The position numbers and the translations under genes are program-made. DNA of 39,126 nucleotides from Alphaproteobacteria bacterium. Its GTDB lineage: Bacteria > Pseudomonadota > Alphaproteobacteria > JAPYRI01. Within the stretch, counting starts at the first letter, position 1. Each line of letters begins with the position of its first letter. This document shows positions 4,600 through 13,326 of the stretch, piece after piece. The notes below the pieces were generated by a model. The model was not told the origin of the DNA, made no database searches, and saw only the letters and a program-made list of their open reading frames with translations. The DNA lies in NCBI GenBank assembly GCA_029941135.1, contig JAPYRI010000020.1, positions 1-39,126 on the forward strand, in the 5' to 3' direction.

Positions 4600-5817
4600 A
4601 TGGCATTCCAAAAATTACAGACCCGAGCTCTGGGAAAGACTGTTCTGCAAAGGGGCCTGCATGCCTTCGTGCTTGCGGTTCTGCTCTCAGGCTGCTCTTT
4701 GGATAGCAACGTGCTGTGGCCGGATGACCCGAGCGACGCGCCCTATGCGTCGGTTGGTTCGCAAGACGCGGCTATCCCGCAATTGGCGGCATCACCGCCC
4801 CCGCGCTCGACCATAGGTGCGGCCCCGCCACCAGCTCTGGGCACGACGAATTTCGTGCCACCGCCGATTTCCTCGCCCCAGGCGACGGGCACGTTTGTCG
4901 GCCAAAAAGTTTCCCAGCACCGCAGTGAGCTGCGGACGCTGCAAGTTTCAATCAACGAACATAACCGCAAGCTTCAAGAAATCCGCAACGTCACCACAGC
5001 TAATGCCCAGCGCTATCACGGCACCGTGGCCGTGGTCACCGCGCGCCTGCAATTGGGCACGACGCCGGGCAACCCGGTATTGGTCAACCAGTGGAACGCG
5101 GCCCAACTGGCGCTCGACCGGATCAGCTCGGACATCACCAGCATGACTTCACTGGGGACAACCGTTGCCGCCGATTCAGCCATGTCCGCTTATTTGCTCG
5201 AAAGCCTGCGGGCGACCTATGGCCTTTCGGGTGCGATTGACGAAGATCACCGGCAAGTTTCGATCCTCGAAGACGAAACCAACCGGACGGTCGTGATGGT
5301 CGATCGTTTATTGAATGAACTGAGCGAAGACATTGCCCGTCAAACCGGCTATGTGGGTAACGCCCGCGGTGACCTGACAACACTGTCTTTGGCGGTTAAA
5401 AACGGCGAAATGTACGGCGCGAGTTTGGGCAACCGCGCGTTCAGTACAGCGGCTCCCGTGGTCAGCATGGCGCCTTCAAGCCTTGGCCGCAGTAGCAGCA
5501 GGTATGCCGGCGCCGATAGACGGCCCCTGGTGGTGATCCGCTTTGACCGCCCCGATGTGCCGTATCAACAGGCGTTGTATAGCGCGGTCAAAAAAGCGCA
5601 GGAACGCAAACCTTCCGCCCAGTTCGATCTGGTTGCCGTGGCGCCGACAAGCAGTTCGGCAGCCCAAAGCCAATTGGCGCAATCAAAATCCAAACGCCAT
5701 GCCCAAGAGGTTCTGCGAACCCTGAACGACATGGGTTTGCCGTCCGAGGTTGTCACCTTATCGGCAACCACCAGCGGCGACACAGCGACCAATGAGGTCC
5801 ACATCTACGTGCGCTGA
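4600..5817 (+). CDS. Predicted lipoprotein with helical middle and OmpA-like C-terminal tail, function unknown
   Basis: From the ATG at 4600 the product is 405 aa. A basic N-terminus leads into the hydrophobic segment HAFVLAVLLSGC, whose LSGC lipobox places the lipidated Cys at residue 32. An in-frame ATG at 4549 would make an implausibly long leader. A Pro/Ala/Ser-rich linker follows (about 40-100), then a mostly helical, possibly coiled-coil region (about 105-270). The last 100 residues start at PLVVIRFDRPDVPYQQAL and end SATTSGDTATNEVHIYVR; they look like a compact alpha/beta domain related to the OmpA-like group. Residue 33 after the Cys is Ser, which favours outer-membrane sorting. I do not recognise a named family. 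The gene stands alone, followed by a strong terminator. Confidence 0.75.
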   Translation: MAFQKLQTRALGKTVLQRGLHAFVLAVLLSGCSLDSNVLWPDDPSDAPYASVGSQDAAIPQLAASPPPRSTIGAAPPPALGTTNFVPPPISSPQATGTFVGQKVSQHRSELRTLQVSINEHNRKLQEIRNVTTANAQRYHGTVAVVTARLQLGTTPGNPVLVNQWNAAQLALDRISSDITSMTSLGTTVAADSAMSAYLLESLRATYGLSGAIDEDHRQVSILEDETNRTVVMVDRLLNELSEDIARQTGYVGNARGDLTTLSLAVKNGEMYGASLGNRAFSTAAPVVSMAPSSLGRSSSRYAGADRRPLVVIRFDRPDVPYQQALYSAVKKAQERKPSAQFDLVAVAPTSSSAAQSQLAQSKSKRHAQEVLRTLNDMGLPSEVVTLSATTSGDTATNEVHIYVR

Positions 5818-5832
5818 CAGGTAATCGATTTC

Positions 5833-5868
5833 AAAAGGCCGCGCGAAGAAATTCGGGCGGCCTTTTTC
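5833..5868. terminator. Bidirectional rho-independent terminator
   Basis: A 14-bp stem with one mismatch (AAAGGCCGC...GCGGCCTTT) has a GAAA loop. It ends in five Ts on the plus strand and is flanked by four As on the other side, so it can serve both the lipoprotein gene and the convergent P1 peptidase gene. Confidence 0.85.
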
Positions 5869-5879
5869 ACGCCCAGGCT

Positions 5880-6893
5880 TTACTCGGTGGTATGAACGGA
5901 TTTGTAACTGAGAAAGTCACCAAGTGTTTCAGCTTCGAAAACCCCCCGCGCAATGGCCCGGGCCACACAATCCGCTGCCAAAGACCCGATCCGCGACAGC
6001 GTGCCCGGCAAAGCCTCCACCCCTCCGCTAACTTCTTGGCCGCCGGTGGATAAGGCAAAAACCACATCCCCATCGAATGGCGTATGTACCGGACGCACCG
6101 CGCGGGCAATACCATCATGGGCCATGGAAGCAATCCGGCCGAGGGCCGCACGATCCAAATTCACATTGGTCGCAACAACGACAAGAGTGGTGTTGGTGCC
6201 GGGCAGTCCTTCCACAGGCAGATCAAGCTCCATGTCTGTGGGCCGGGCCGGAGGAGGAACTTGTCCACCAAGTTCGTTTTGTTGCTCATAAGGCCACGCC
6301 CAAAAGCTCGCCGAATTTGGCATGACGACTGAACCCTGGGGATTAACAGCAACCAGCGCACCCACTTGAATGCCATCATCAGTGACGATGGACGTACTGC
6401 CCAGCCCGCCTTTGAGCGGCCCGGCTGAGGCCCCAAAACCTGCCCCCACATTGCCGAGATCGAAAGTGGCACCGGCCCAGTCACACGCTTTTTGTCCCAA
6501 TTCTCGATAGGGGGGTGGGTCACCCCAGTTTTTATCGCCGCCATTAGCGAGATCATAGAGAATGGCGGAGGGCACCACGGGTATGGTCAACGGCTCTAGC
6601 GCCAATCCGCGCCTCCGTGCCGACATCCACGACACCACGCCCCCTGCGGCGTCGAGCCCGAACACCGATCCACCGCTCAAACACAAAGCATGGATATGCG
6701 TGACCAGACATGATGGGTTGAGCGCATCGGTCTCGCGTGTGCCCGGCCCCCCACCGCGCACGTCGACAGCCGCCGCCACGGGCGCGTCGGGCAAGACAAC
6801 GGTCACGCCCGTGCGAGCGTTATGATCAACCGCGTTGCCGACCTTGAGGCCGTCCACGTCGGTGATGAGATTTCGCGGACCCATTTGCGTCAT
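5880..6893 (-). CDS. P1 family peptidase (DmpA/BapA-type, MEROPS S58)
   Basis: The product is about 337 aa, a self-processing N-terminal-nucleophile aminopeptidase of the DmpA class. These enzymes cleave themselves into two chains and release N-terminal residues from short peptides or beta-peptides. Motifs include NLITDVDGLKVGNA near the start, VRGGGPGTRETD (about 46-57), LSGGSVFGLDAAGGV (about 72-86), and KGGLGSTS (about 161-168); the last probably holds the cleavage site and nucleophile. There is no signal peptide, so it is cytosolic. I use the ATG at 6893, since translation from the upstream TTG at 6929 adds 12 unconserved residues. It is divergent from the gamma-glutamyltransferase gene, and both products act on small peptides, suggesting peptide turnover. 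Confidence 0.9.
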   Translation of the reverse strand: MTQMGPRNLITDVDGLKVGNAVDHNARTGVTVVLPDAPVAAAVDVRGGGPGTRETDALNPSCLVTHIHALCLSGGSVFGLDAAGGVVSWMSARRRGLALEPLTIPVVPSAILYDLANGGDKNWGDPPPYRELGQKACDWAGATFDLGNVGAGFGASAGPLKGGLGSTSIVTDDGIQVGALVAVNPQGSVVMPNSASFWAWPYEQQNELGGQVPPPARPTDMELDLPVEGLPGTNTTLVVVATNVNLDRAALGRIASMAHDGIARAVRPVHTPFDGDVVFALSTGGQEVSGGVEALPGTLSRIGSLAADCVARAIARGVFEAETLGDFLSYKSVHTTE

Positions 6894-8893: not shown

Positions 8894-9682
8894 TCAGCGC
8901 ACGGCATAAATAAACAAACGCCGGAAGCTATACACGGTACGCCCATCGGCTTGGGCCGGGTAAGCCGCCGCGATCGTCTGACTAAAGTCTGCCAGAAATC
9001 GCTCCCGCTGGGCATCATCCAGGGCATCCAAAAAGGGCTTCAAAACCGACCCTTTGACCCATTCCACCACCGGGGTTTCGCCCTCAAGGTGATACAAATA
9101 CTCGGTCGTCCAAATATCGAGTTGGCGAGCGAGCGGCGCCAGCAAATCATAATACTCCTTAGGCGCGCCGACCGGCTCGCGGCACACAAGGGGCGCGAGA
9201 TAGGGTCCCCAGGTTTTGCTTTCCGCGAGGTCGAAGATCGCTTGGTGGGACGGGGCCTGGTGGTTGGCAGCCATCTGCACCGCAAGCACACCATCGGCCC
9301 CTAAGGCCCCCATCAGCCGGGGCAGTATAACGTCATGGCGGTCCAGCCAATGAAACACTGCGTTTGAGAATATCAGGTGTTGAGGGTCAACTGGCGCCCA
9401 TTTGGTGATATCGGCCTCGTGCCATTCGACGGCATCCAAACCCGCCATACGCCTGGCTTCCGTGAGCATTTCGCCGGAACCATCAACCCCTGTTATCCAC
9501 GCGCCGGACCAGCGGTCATGCAGGAGTTTTGTCACCGTACCCGGCCCGCAGCCCAAATCAGTGATGCGCAGGTCAGTGCCTGTGCGACCGGCAGGCGCCA
9601 CGGGCACGCGCGCCATCAGGTCTAGCGCCGGCTGGGTGCGCTGGCGATCAAACTTGAGGTACTGACTTGGATCCCATTTCAT
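8894..9682 (-). CDS. tam: Trans-aconitate 2-methyltransferase-like SAM methyltransferase
   Basis: This 262-aa class I methyltransferase resembles Tam, which methyl-esterifies trans-aconitate and so removes an inhibitor of aconitase. The N-terminus MKWDPSQYLKFDRQRTQPALD is typical of Tam. SAM-binding motif I is TDLGCGPGT (41-49), the acidic end of strand 2 is GVDGS (65-69), and FSNAVFHWL (105-113) is a Tam-family signature. Length is usual for the family (about 255). It is cytosolic. A likely ribosome site, AAAGGTGA, lies upstream of the ATG at 9682. It follows the decayed histidine kinase on the same strand and may share that promoter, but no regulatory link can be shown. Confidence 0.88.
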   Translation of the reverse strand: MKWDPSQYLKFDRQRTQPALDLMARVPVAPAGRTGTDLRITDLGCGPGTVTKLLHDRWSGAWITGVDGSGEMLTEARRMAGLDAVEWHEADITKWAPVDPQHLIFSNAVFHWLDRHDVILPRLMGALGADGVLAVQMAANHQAPSHQAIFDLAESKTWGPYLAPLVCREPVGAPKEYYDLLAPLARQLDIWTTEYLYHLEGETPVVEWVKGSVLKPFLDALDDAQRERFLADFSQTIAAAYPAQADGRTVYSFRRLFIYAVR

Positions 9683-9709: not shown

Positions 9710-11100
9710 TTACCGGTCGGGAATTTTGATCCTGAACCAAGTTCCGGTTGGATCGCTGCTGACCAGCGGAATGTCGCCCCCGTGTACTTTTACCAGATCG
9801 CGCGCGATGGCCAGACCAAGACCGGTGCCGCCTTCCCGTGCGCTGCCGTCAAAAATATCGAACAGCTTTGCTTGCGCGGATTGCGGAATACCCGGGCCTG
9901 TGTCGCGCACATCAATAAACACGGTGTCTTGTTCGCGCCGGGCCGATATTTTTACTTCGCCGCCGGTTTTATGGCCACCGGTTTTATGATTGTCCGCTTC
10001 CATGGCCTGCACGGCGTTTTGAACCAAATTGAGAAGAATTCTGAAAATCTGTTCAGGATCGCCATCCAACTCAAGGCCAAACTCAATATCATCAATCAAC
10101 ACCATACGATCTTCGCTGGTCGCGCCAACCGTCCTTTTTAAGTCGGAATTAAGGTGTCCAGGGGAAACAACCCCCGGCGCGGAAGCCGTTCGCCCGCCCG
10201 GCCGAAATCCAGAGTTTCTGTACACAAGGTGATCGCCCGGTCAACCGCCTTGTATAGACGGGGAGTGAGGCGGCGCACAACAGGATCGGAGCTATTGGCC
10301 ATGCGCTCGGACGCCAACTGCGCGCTGGCCAGAATATTGCGCAGGTCGTGATTGCCCTTACTCACCGCCGCGCCCAGCGCTGCCAACCGGGTTTTCTGTG
10401 CGAGCGATGCGCGCAGATCTTGCTGCACACTCTCCAGCGCCCCCTGGGCAATGCCAATTTCATCCGATCGATTGCTGGGTGCAATCATGTTCTTCGGGTT
10501 TTCAGGGTTGTCACGGAACTCAGCCATACTGTCGGTAATACGCCGTATGGGTCGAACCATCAGCCATTGAAGGCTAAAGAAAACAAGCCCGGCGGTCATA
10601 AGTGGCGCCTCGTTGAGCACAACTTCCAAGTAACTATCGTCTTCACTCTGCGGGGGATCGCTGGCCACTCTGATGACTCGGCCCCCATCGGGACCGCTGC
10701 CGTCGTTCCCCCGCAGTATGGCAGCGAAAGCATCAATAATCAGACTGGCCGCCGCCGCTTCACGCAAATCGAAACTCGCATCTACCGTAAGTGGCATGGG
10801 TTCAGATAAAAAGAGTGCCCGCAAGTCGTGGCGGCGCAAAATGACCGACCGCGCTTGAGCGCTGACGAGCAGTTAAGCCTCAAGGGAAGCCGACACCATG
10901 TTTGACGGAGCCGCCGACATGGCAAGTGTCGCAATCCGAGCGACGCTCAGTCGCTCTTCCAAATAAACCAACCTAAAACGAGCGATTGACGGCACATAAA
11001 TCAAAACTTCACTCAGCATGATGAAAAAGATCGTCAGCAAGATCAGGCGGGCAGACAGTCCGGTCGCCAAAGTGGATTTAAGCGATTTCTCCATTGTCAT
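9710..11100 (-). pseudogene. Membrane sensor histidine kinase gene inactivated by several lesions
   Basis: All parts of one kinase are present in order but cannot be read through. The N-terminal piece (11100-10873) has a membrane segment (LSARLILLTIFFIML...VYVPSIARF) and ends at an in-frame TAA where relatives read Glu. Reading resumes in the same frame through RRHDLRALFLSE and SLQWLMVRPIRRIT (HAMP side), then the phospho-acceptor box GNHDLRNILASAQ. A one-base shift near 10136-10150, beside a run of five As, moves the rest into another frame. That part has the N-box NLVQNAVQAM, G1 DTGPGIP and G2 GTGLGLAIA. The second membrane helix also seems lost (NEAPL joined directly to MTAGLVFF). A 15-nt tandem duplication (HKTGG twice) lies in the ATPase domain at 9962-9988. 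No cognate response regulator is adjacent. Confidence 0.82.
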
Positions 11101-11114
11101 ACGGAATAGTTACA

Positions 11115-11158
11115 TAAAAAACAGGCCCCCGCGCAAATCTACTTGCCCGGGAGCCTGT
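11115..11158 (-). terminator. Rho-independent terminator of the Cys-rich gene
   Basis: A stem of about 11 bp, ACAGGC-CCCG against CGGGAGCCTGT with one mismatch, is followed on the minus strand by six Ts. It lies about 58 bp past the Cys-rich gene stop and separates it from the kinase remnant. Confidence 0.75.
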
Positions 11159-11215: not shown

Positions 11216-11431
11216 TTAGCCTTCCTTGCCCGCATCTTTTGCACCACACGGGTTGGCTGCACACGGATTAGCCGCGCACGGATGGGCTGCTGAACACGGG
11301 GTGCAGCCAGCGACATGAACGAAACCTGCTTTCTTAGCCGTCGGATTTGCGCCATCGCTAGGGACAGCCACGGCAATACTGGCGCTTGCGAGGGTGACGA
11401 CGGCAGCGGTAATGGCAAACTTATTCATCAT
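11216..11431 (-). CDS. Small secreted Cys-rich protein, function unknown
   Basis: From the ATG at 11431 (AAGGAG at 11439-11444, 7-nt spacing) the product is 71 aa. A clear signal peptide (FAITAAVVTLASASIAVA) is followed by a mature part of about 45 residues. Five Cys occur in CTPC and then the repeated HPC, NPC, NPC spacing, with AANPCAANPC a direct internal repeat; the tail is charged. The regular xPC units and exported location suggest metal binding or disulfide cross-linking, but that is inference. It lacks the long Cys-Lys pattern of DUF2282 bufferins, and no DUF692 enzyme is near. It lies upstream of the kinase remnant and downstream of the DUF547-TVP38 pair on the same strand, with its own terminator. 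Confidence 0.7.
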   Translation of the reverse strand: MMNKFAITAAVVTLASASIAVAVPSDGANPTAKKAGFVHVAGCTPCSAAHPCAANPCAANPCGAKDAGKEG

Positions 11432-11614
11432 CTTTGCTCTCCTTGTTTTGCTGTGATTATGGGTGTGTTGAAGGCGGCGGAGCACATTTCCGAGCACCGA
11501 CAACTACGCATTCGTTTAAGCTACAATTTTACCGGGAAGTGATCTTGAAACCTGACCAGTTCAACAAATTAACGCTAGCTAACTCTTACGCGCGGAGGGT
11601 GTGTCAAAATTGTG

Positions 11615-12397
11615 TCACGGATCAGTTTTCTCATTGTCGCGGACCAAAGACTTGAACTTTTTGTACGCCACCGGCAGCAAAGAAAACAGCCCCAATCCGG
11701 CGAATGCTACCATAAGTTCCGGCGTCAGCACGCTTGAAACCGAGAACGATTCCCCCCGGTCAAATATACTGCCAAGTCCCGCACCAACCAGCGCGTAGAC
11801 AAAACCGCCGGGGATGATACCGATAAATGTGGCGGCAAAAAATATTAGAATCGGTACGCCGAGAAAGGCCGGTGCGAGATTAATCAGCCAGAACGGAAAG
11901 ATTGGAATGAGCCGCAGGGTGAGTAAATAGCTGAAGGCATTTTCGCGGAACCCAGCTTCCATTTTCTTAAGTCGCGGCCCCGCTTTGGCCTTTAATAAAT
12001 CGCCAACCGCCGTTCGGGCCGCGGCAAAAACGATAACCGCACCGATGGTTGCACCGGTAACCGCACATAGTGTGCCGACGACCGCGCCAAACAAAAAGCC
12101 GCTGGTCATGGTGAGTATGGCGGCCCCGGGCACAGAAACAGCAATTGCCGCCGCATAAACGGCGATAAAAGCAACGGCCGCCAAAAGACCATTGCGCGCG
12201 ACCCAACTGGTAAGCAGGTCGCGGTTCTCCTTAAGCGCATCGAAAGTGAGGAAACGATCCAGATCGAGCGCCAAAACAATCCCCAATCCGGCCACCAGCA
12301 CCACTAGTGGCGCCAGTCTTCGGAGCGGAAACCGAGACGTTCCCGGGTCCCCGGCGTTCCCATTCTCTATCGTCGAATTGGTCAAACTTGTATCCAT
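11615..12397 (-). CDS. TVP38/TMEM64 family inner-membrane protein (VTT/DedA superfamily)
   Basis: This protein of about 260 aa has five to six hydrophobic segments. The VTT core carries GFLFGAVVGTLCAVTGATIG (about residues 101-120) and LRLIPIFPFWLINLAPAFLG (about 160-179), with the re-entrant glycine- and proline-rich pattern typical of the group. Members are thought to act as lipid scramblases/flippases or small-molecule transporters in the inner membrane; the specific substrate is unknown. I take the ATG at 12397, which lies two bases after the DUF547 stop; a TTG at 12403 would overlap it. This tight spacing implies translational coupling with DUF547. The pairing is recurrent in bacteria, including in arsenosugar-type clusters as I recall, but no arsenic genes are seen here. 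Confidence 0.9.
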   Translation of the reverse strand: MDTSLTNSTIENGNAGDPGTSRFPLRRLAPLVVLVAGLGIVLALDLDRFLTFDALKENRDLLTSWVARNGLLAAVAFIAVYAAAIAVSVPGAAILTMTSGFLFGAVVGTLCAVTGATIGAVIVFAAARTAVGDLLKAKAGPRLKKMEAGFRENAFSYLLTLRLIPIFPFWLINLAPAFLGVPILIFFAATFIGIIPGGFVYALVGAGLGSIFDRGESFSVSSVLTPELMVAFAGLGLFSLLPVAYKKFKSLVRDNEKTDP

Positions 12398-12399
12398 TG

Positions 12400-13326
12400 T
12401 CAATTCGCTTGCCTAAACTTGTCACGATGGTCGTTCAAGGACCAGTCGTAATCGCTAAATTCGAAACTACTGACCCCGTTCAGGACCCGCGACAACGGGA
12501 CCGCGGCAAATTTTCGCAAGTGATCGAGAACATTCGCGTCAGTTTCGCCAAAATCTTCCCGGTACCACTTATAGAGCCTGGACACTCGAACGCCATTGCT
12601 CTCAATGGATACCGCGCGGGGGTGATTGACAAATGCACGGGCGGCAGCATCAAGCTGAGCGCCCAGTCCGGCGCTGGTAAATGCCCTGGGCATCAAGTTT
12701 GGACACCCGACCGCCGCACAATTTAGAGCGTAATGAAGGCGCGGATCCTGCCAGATCGGCCGCAAGATGCTGTGCTCAATATCATCAAGGCTGAGAATTT
12801 GGCCTTCAATCTTGGTCAGTGGTGCGCCCCAAGGGCCGACCGCAAACCAACCCGGAGAAATATCAATATCGCGAATGGATTGAAGTGGATAGTGGCGCAG
12901 CACCAATCGAATCGTTAGGGCGTTGTATAGATTTATCCAAAAAGCCATTTGCTCCTGGCGATTGTAAGTGCCGATACGAACCCGCTCCAGGTAGGCAATG
13001 TAGGCGTCGAGCATCACCTTGTCGGTTGGACGAACATGGTTGTAATCGACCCGAGTCGCGCCCGCCTGATCGGTTGTTACGTACGCTTCCAAAAACCGCT
13101 CCCACACGGAATGTTCGAGCCTATCGGTTGAGTTTTGATCGTAGGTCCGCCAACGGGATTGAAAATCCGCGTCGGCTGCATCGGCCGCGACCACAGGAGC
13201 AGAAACCGTGAGCCACCAGGAGCCAAGCCCGGCTAATATCGACAATATTAGACGTTGGCGGCGCCATTGTTGAGAGATGTACAAACGCAGACCCCATGCA
13301 TGCGGATTCCAGATCGGGGAATCCAT
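12400..13326 (-). CDS. DUF547 domain-containing exported protein
   Basis: This 308-aa protein has an N-terminal signal or anchor (LILSILAGLGSWWLTVSAPVVA, ending near residue 48) followed by a DUF547 domain. Diagnostic blocks are VDYNHVRPTDKVMLDAYI, FWINLYNALTIRLVLRHYP, LTKIEGQILSLDDIEH, and HYALNCAAVGCPNL with its conserved Cys and His. The fold is related to transglutaminase/papain-like proteins, but no activity is established for the family. It is predicted to be periplasmic. It is the first gene of a two-gene unit with TVP38/TMEM64 (2-bp gap). Upstream is the rpmH promoter region, facing away. Confidence 0.88.
   Translation of the reverse strand: MDSPIWNPHAWGLRLYISQQWRRQRLILSILAGLGSWWLTVSAPVVAADAADADFQSRWRTYDQNSTDRLEHSVWERFLEAYVTTDQAGATRVDYNHVRPTDKVMLDAYIAYLERVRIGTYNRQEQMAFWINLYNALTIRLVLRHYPLQSIRDIDISPGWFAVGPWGAPLTKIEGQILSLDDIEHSILRPIWQDPRLHYALNCAAVGCPNLMPRAFTSAGLGAQLDAAARAFVNHPRAVSIESNGVRVSRLYKWYREDFGETDANVLDHLRKFAAVPLSRVLNGVSSFEFSDYDWSLNDHRDKFRQAN

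Follow-up and report, generated by a model that had tools for sequence, protein, structure and literature searches.

Background

Bacterial metallothioneins and cysteine-rich copper-binding peptides are short, rich in cysteine and of low complexity. Bufferins (Buf1, which carries DUF2282, and Buf2) are small exported Cys-rich peptides, found in the company of the MNIO family (DUF692) and of DUF2063, and sequester copper by means of thiooxazoles derived from cysteine. Passages of PMC12452194 describe bufferin clusters for copper in which DUF2282 and DUF692 stand together with a sigma factor and NrsF. At the membrane, DedA proteins of the TVP38 type (COG0398) occur fused to flavoproteins carrying the PF07992 and PF02852 domains, and this subfamily is reported to be essential in two alphaproteobacteria, both according to passages of PMC10127716.

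In this work, we describe a locus which shares features with each of these systems and differs from each. The window, i.e. the whole stretch of 39,126 nucleotides that was analyzed (contig JAPYRI010000020.1 of assembly GCA_029941135.1), encodes a short Cys-repeat peptide next to genes for a DUF547 and a TVP38 protein (Table 1). Like metallothioneins and copper-binding peptides, the peptide is short, Cys-rich and of low complexity, but it differs from them in its signal-like segment, in the spacing of its xPC units and in matching no family model above cut-off. Bufferins are closer: the xPC peptides too are small, Cys-rich and of the exported type, and an NPC peptide from Skermanella lies near sigma70 and NrsF genes, as in the clusters described in passages of PMC12452194. 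In contrast to bufferins, however, the xPC peptides tested have no DUF2282 match and a different repeat architecture, and their company consists of DUF6969 and FGE-like proteins instead of DUF692 and DUF2063. As to the general bufferin pattern of a signal followed by several cysteines, the window peptide has the cysteines, and its signal was read by eye. Because two defining features fail, we do not file the xPC system under bufferins, despite the likeness in outline. The window's genome, which is 95% complete, gave no match to MNIO (DUF692, PF05114), so that a modification of the window peptide by an MNIO protein is unsupported for this genome.

Organization of the locus

Table 1. Features of the window around the xPC-repeat peptide gene
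Feature	Coordinates	Strand	Basis
DUF547 protein, N-terminal hydrophobic segment	12400..13326	minus	PF04784
TVP38/TMEM64 (VTT domain) membrane protein	11615..12397	minus	PF09335
Gap TVP38-peptide, 183 nt	11432..11614	minus	consensus scan, folding vs shuffles
71-aa exported-type xPC-repeat peptide	11216..11431	minus	ORF reading, profile score
Hairpin with U run, resembling an intrinsic terminator, in the peptide-kinase gap	11115..11158	minus	folding
Broken sensor histidine kinase	9710..11100	minus	HATPase_c on C-terminal piece
Methyltransferase, end of the recurrent block	8894..9682	minus	PF13649, E 8.7e-13

The original prediction placed a secreted Cys-repeat peptide downstream of a DUF547-TVP38 pair on the same strand, and this arrangement was confirmed, with the signal judged by eye. 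The N-terminus is hydrophobic and signal-like, and the mature part holds CTPC, HPC, NPC and NPC, i.e. four xPC units. A Shine-Dalgarno-like AAGGAG lies shortly 5' of the ATG at 11431; a longer version of 95 aa, starting from a TTG at 11503, is also open. None of the Pfam families matched the peptide, and the only match among NCBIfam models was below cut-off.

In the gap between TVP38 and the peptide, a consensus scan listed no promoter-like or terminator-like site; its terminator search accepts loops of 3-8 only, and also omitted the hairpin at 11158. The gap folds no better than shuffled sequence. The hairpin and U run located 3' of the peptide give an energy z-score of -4.1 for a stretch of 115 nt.

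The next gene downstream of the peptide, on which the original prediction does not comment, encodes the orthologue of a sensor kinase which follows xPC peptides elsewhere. Of the 385 genomes of the class, 190 have this orthologue, yet the window copy is broken, by an in-frame stop after residue 75, counted from the ATG at 11100, and by a shift of reading frame somewhere between about 10170 and 10100. An assembly error may be responsible for the kinase lesions; a poor assembly is less likely, because rnpA, yidD, yidC, engB and argB, on the opposite strand, all read as whole ORFs. A search with the sensor stretch of the kinase returned nothing useful. The methyltransferase which follows is provisionally labelled Tam.

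The xPC-repeat family

Used as a query, the window peptide produced matches, mostly weak, in 25 of the 385 genomes, its own included; since xPC repeats are of low complexity, some of the weak matches are compositional. The frames behind some of the matches are exported-type proteins with long NPC repeats, in part fused to a second domain, which in the case tested is cytochrome P460 (PF16694). In one mapped neighbourhood a clear NPC peptide was found just 5' of the kinase, and a search with this sequence gave matches in 38 of the 385 genomes.

At least 14 of 130 kinase loci whose upstream region was read, the window included, feature a same-strand ORF with three or more xPC units, a figure which, together with the absences, is to be read as a lower bound, as the filter misses true cases such as the Skermanella peptide. 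The distance from the end of the ORF to the estimated start of the kinase is no more than about 200 nt in eleven of them, and about 0.55, 1.1 and 2.1 kb in the remaining three. The same pattern was met in only 2 of 562 control strand-windows, drawn from both strands of 58 other loci and not from random genes of the same genomes, and neither of the two looks like an exported repeat. The 130 loci comprise the window, 30 loci among the matches listed and 100 further stretches, taken in rank order from the 190 kinase genomes with contig-edge cases skipped; one of the 100, L347, was dropped, having no kinase N-terminus, and G063 was added owing to a match in the peptide search and not counted as positive. 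Both G063 and G299, whose peptide contains an in-frame TGA, match in the searches but fail the pattern filter. The 14 positive loci are contributed by ten families, with two related genomes each in f104 and f113 and three in f82.

The window peptide features the signal-like N-terminus, spacer and repeated xPC units by which the family is defined. Against a profile built from the peptides of the 13 other kinase loci, the window being excluded, it scores 30.2 bits, a value reached by none of 2000 shuffles of its mature part, and by one of 2000 when the xPC words were kept whole. Its pre-repeat stretch, VHVAGCTPC, resembles VQLAACNPC, and a stretch of this type is found, by the pattern used, in 7 of the 13 other peptides. 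No other member of the set is as short, and its xPC units number four where the 13 others have 4-13. Nine other Cys-repeat peptides, searched alone against Pfam, gave no match except one to Amelogenin, below cut-off. Two NPC peptides compared with a plasmid collection had no match either, and one of them missed its own record, which we ascribe to the low-complexity filter. A literature search for NPCAAK found no paper, and one for NPC repeats or motifs found none relevant by title among the best 8 of 16 listed.

As 116 of the 130 kinase loci are without an xPC peptide under the filter used, the peptide is best described as an accessory at the kinase locus. It might be a sensory accessory of the kinase itself, its thiols reacting with a periplasmic metal or oxidant and the peptide contacting the sensor domain. 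The downstream kinase is indeed the recurrent neighbour, even at G081, G196 and G367, where no TVP38 or flavoprotein is found in the stretch read. Against such a role speak, besides those 116 loci, the strong terminator-like hairpin which separates the two genes in the window, and the integrity of the peptide ORF next to a broken kinase; we consider it quite improbable.

TVP38 lies in the same stretch, besides the window, at five of the 14 peptide-bearing loci (G341, G305, G027, G112 and G078), and upstream on the same contig, by coordinates, at G209, G377 and G001. Among the 14, DUF547 stands beside TVP38 in the window only. Because of this, the tie of the peptide is to the kinase/flavoprotein end of the neighbourhood. 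The outcome that would have refuted the original prediction, a lack of any conserved neighbourhood among relatives, was not observed, as the xPC peptide does recur here in other families of the class. The prediction is supported in part: the partner at this locus is the kinase and not DUF547, and the proposed tie to the DUF547-TVP38 pair is weakened by the other 13 loci.

The DUF547-TVP38 pair and its block

Both members of the pair are clear cases, DUF547 with an E of 1.8e-27 (96.2 bits, cut-off 27) and TVP38 with an E of 8.3e-22 (78.4 bits, cut-off 33.9), and 2 nt separate the stop of the former from the ATG of the latter. We take the window VTT protein to be a member of COG0398. With a model built from 25 of 38 loci and the window, DUF547 was detected in 102 of the 385 genomes of the class; the window TVP38 was found in 99 of the 101 DUF547 genomes searched, G072, with a DUF547 match below cut-off, being left out. 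TVP38 is located directly downstream of DUF547, at less than 1 kb and on the same strand, in 26 of these 101 genomes, which bears out the claim that the pair recurs; another 6 have it upstream of DUF547, at a distance of 1.6-3.9 kb. A divergent rnpA is found less than 1.7 kb from DUF547 or TVP38 in 31 of 53 mapped sequences, selected for DUF547 or for the top TVP38 match. The usual order, within the rnpA/yidC/engB neighbourhood, is a divergent rnpA followed by DUF547 (not always present), TVP38, a MerA-like flavoprotein, the kinase and, in some cases, the methyltransferase, the genes after rnpA being all on one strand.

The MerA-like protein, found after TVP38 in many relatives, is a pyridine nucleotide-disulfide oxidoreductase which resembles MerA in carrying both PF07992 and PF02852. 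A C-terminal Cys-Cys pair marks MerA; it is absent from the six block sequences inspected, and one representative (L171) scores 389.9 bits against the MerA model TIGR02053, below the cut-off of 454.45. No MerA-like match was obtained in the window block by tblastn with the relatives, and the nearest flavoprotein relative in the window's genome, 56% identical, is on a different contig. The succession of TVP38 and flavoprotein in the relatives' block recalls the COG0398-flavoprotein fusions; passages of PMC10127716 describe these fusions with no mention of DUF547, kinase or peptide, and the window block, for its part, is without the flavoprotein. An apparent MerA-TVP38 fusion at G130 was rejected, as it consists of two adjacent reading frames.

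The AlphaFold2 model of the DUF547 protein has a mean pLDDT of 83.9 and no match in the PDB at E <= 0.001. A likeness to 14-3-3, with a best Z of 4.2 on a second look, is not treated as a relationship. The invariant His and Cys of DUF547 could point to an active site or a metal site. We found no paper joining DUF547 and TVP38, and no study of a bacterial DUF547 protein was apparent from the literature listing.

The original prediction took the peptide and the pair, as a hypothesis, for one functional unit. They are adjacent on the same strand in the window, and DUF547, TVP38 and a Cys-repeat peptide share an island in Burkholderia (see below). Set against this, the 13 other peptide-bearing kinase loci are without DUF547 beside TVP38 and an xPC peptide is missing from most of the pair loci that were mapped, which makes a common unit very unlikely.

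Association with DUF6969

A second partner of the xPC peptides is DUF6969 (PF22308), a common neighbour of many xPC loci away from the kinase, found near the xPC ORF in 14 of 36 xPC loci examined, four of which were confirmed by Pfam. At the genome level, it is present in 42 of 44 peptide-positive genomes (the 38 from the NPC-peptide search, some of them weak matches, plus six others) against 9 of 36 others, picked in handle order and including at least three without the kinase (Fisher p 1.7e-11). In G052, one of the nine DUF6969 genomes counted as peptide-negative, an NPC ORF adjoins the DUF6969 gene. Peptide, DUF6969 and kinase are found together in G016.

Among 30 DUF6969 loci returned, 28 of which come from peptide-positive genomes, 19 have an FGE-like gene within about 1.5 kb (PF03781 in three tested), 16 an xPC ORF, 11 a cytochrome c, 10 a DUF2336 and 5 a P460 protein. 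Six His residues are invariant in 13 DUF6969 proteins (H52, H70, H72, H79, H81 and H114) and include the HxH and GHFH motifs; no export signal is evident by eye. Searches with DUF6969 gave no match by phmmer against PDB sequences, none in viral contigs and, in the library searched, no paper naming it.

In the window's genome there is one DUF6969 open frame (contig C94:6323-6928, E 2.2e-83), and it adjoins an exported-type NPC-P460 fusion (L413 2310-2921, G000 contig C94) in which both the frame and the heme motif are broken, the motif reading SADCH in another frame. No paper on cytochrome P460 with a cysteine-rich repeat was found.

With kinase and P460 paralogue both broken, the flavoprotein absent from the block and four xPC units where the 13 others have 4-13, the window peptide could be a non-functional relic of a system being lost, or a neutral small ORF. 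Its signal-like segment, Shine-Dalgarno-like sequence, stop and hairpin are nevertheless all intact, its score against the family profile exceeds that of nearly all shuffles, and the DUF6969 frame of the genome is open. We hold this explanation to be unlikely, in a comparison where none of the relatives returned belongs to the order of the window organism.

Two plasmids extend the association. In Burkholderia glumae plasmid p19s1p, a DUF6969 relative (E 1e-24 by tblastn) has a signal-bearing Cys-repeat peptide directly 5' of it, within an island (L422, NZ_CP100235.1 168000-200000) which also contains DUF547, ArsS, the TIGR04282/TIGR04283 arsenosugar genes, a bifunctional TVP38/FAD-dependent oxidoreductase and two DUF692+DUF2282 sets; no paper joining TVP38 and arsenosugar was found. 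In Skermanella mucosa pSM-3 the order, as annotated, is DUF6969 relative, NPC peptide, DUF302, sigma70 and NrsF, the NrsF piece being below the Pfam cut-off. The gene company on these plasmids suggests, as a hypothesis, a part in metal or metalloid handling, of the kind that the original prediction had proposed. Passages of PMC6180224 link the Caulobacter SigF-NrsF system to oxidative stress, chromate and cadmium; they also report that the NrsF-type counterpart of S. meliloti is silent to H2O2, cadmium and chromate, which counts against such a part.

Other neighbours point in a different direction: P460 fusions and cytochrome c, PF04143 (sulfur transport) and Mla lipid transport. The xPC-repeat/DUF6969 system might serve redox, nitrogen-oxide or sulfur chemistry in place of metals, in line with the PF16694 fusion, with the share of cytochrome c, P460 and FGE-like genes among the returned DUF6969 loci given above and with the PF04143 gene which adjoins one NPC peptide. 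The stand-alone peptides of the kinase loci, however, are without a P460 domain, and the loci of Burkholderia and Skermanella have metal/metalloid or sigma-NrsF genes for neighbours; we regard a system devoted to such chemistry as improbable.

Possible function

What is observed is the fit of the window peptide to the family profile, the recurrence of such peptides 5' of one conserved kinase and their co-occurrence with DUF6969. The explanation we prefer, tentatively and at somewhat less than even confidence, is that the window peptide belongs, as a short and perhaps decaying representative, to an unnamed thiol-rich family of the exported type, concerned with metal or sulfur handling in the envelope. 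On this best reading it would act as a thiol-rich envelope buffer, bufferin-like but without MNIO, and here perhaps in decay.

The peptide would reach the periplasm by export, and soft metal ions, such as Cu(I), Zn, Cd, Hg or As(III), or reactive sulfur could be bound there by its cysteines. DUF6969, with its invariant HxH...GHFH histidines, may prepare or load the peptide, alone or together with the FGE-like protein. The same envelope stress would be sensed by the kinase, and TVP38 and the flavoprotein disulfide oxidoreductase would form the membrane side of this response. In the window's genome the arrangement is partly lost, kinase and P460 paralogue being broken and the flavoprotein gone from the block. 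Two further points weigh against a thiol-rich buffer: of the 36 genomes lacking a peptide match in the searches, 9 do have DUF6969, and the decay in the window's genome may have left the peptide a relic.

A wider proposal, which we put forward as doubtful, is that xPC peptides together with DUF6969 and the FGE-like protein constitute a so far undescribed alphaproteobacterial class of peptide modification, with a relative in Burkholderia. DUF6969 would then be a new metal-dependent maturase, modifying or loading cysteines prior to export, and the peptides would be MNIO-independent metal or sulfur buffers, one branch of which is wired to the TVP38-flavoprotein-kinase block.

DUF6969 provides a concrete partner for exported-type Cys-repeat proteins which the Pfam and NCBIfam models tested miss, and the TVP38-flavoprotein block, so far without a settled role, is now seen to have thiol peptides and a sensor kinase as neighbours. 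If DUF6969 modifies cysteines, this would make it a maturation enzyme of a new kind; otherwise, the pairing could still be tested as a module of the response to metal or sulfur stress.

Other DUF6969 loci

DUF6969 relatives are also found on further plasmids. In those of Azospirillum (L416, L417, L421 and L423) a Mla lipid-transport operon is followed by the DUF6969 relative and then by DUF2336; two of the Azospirillum loci were scanned and gave no xPC ORF, by a filter known to miss some. In Sinorhizobium meliloti pSymB (L419 ~5640-6000) a signal-like ORF with APC repeats adjoins the DUF6969 relative, and the other neighbour of this ORF encodes a membrane protein resembling, by eye, YeeE/YedE.
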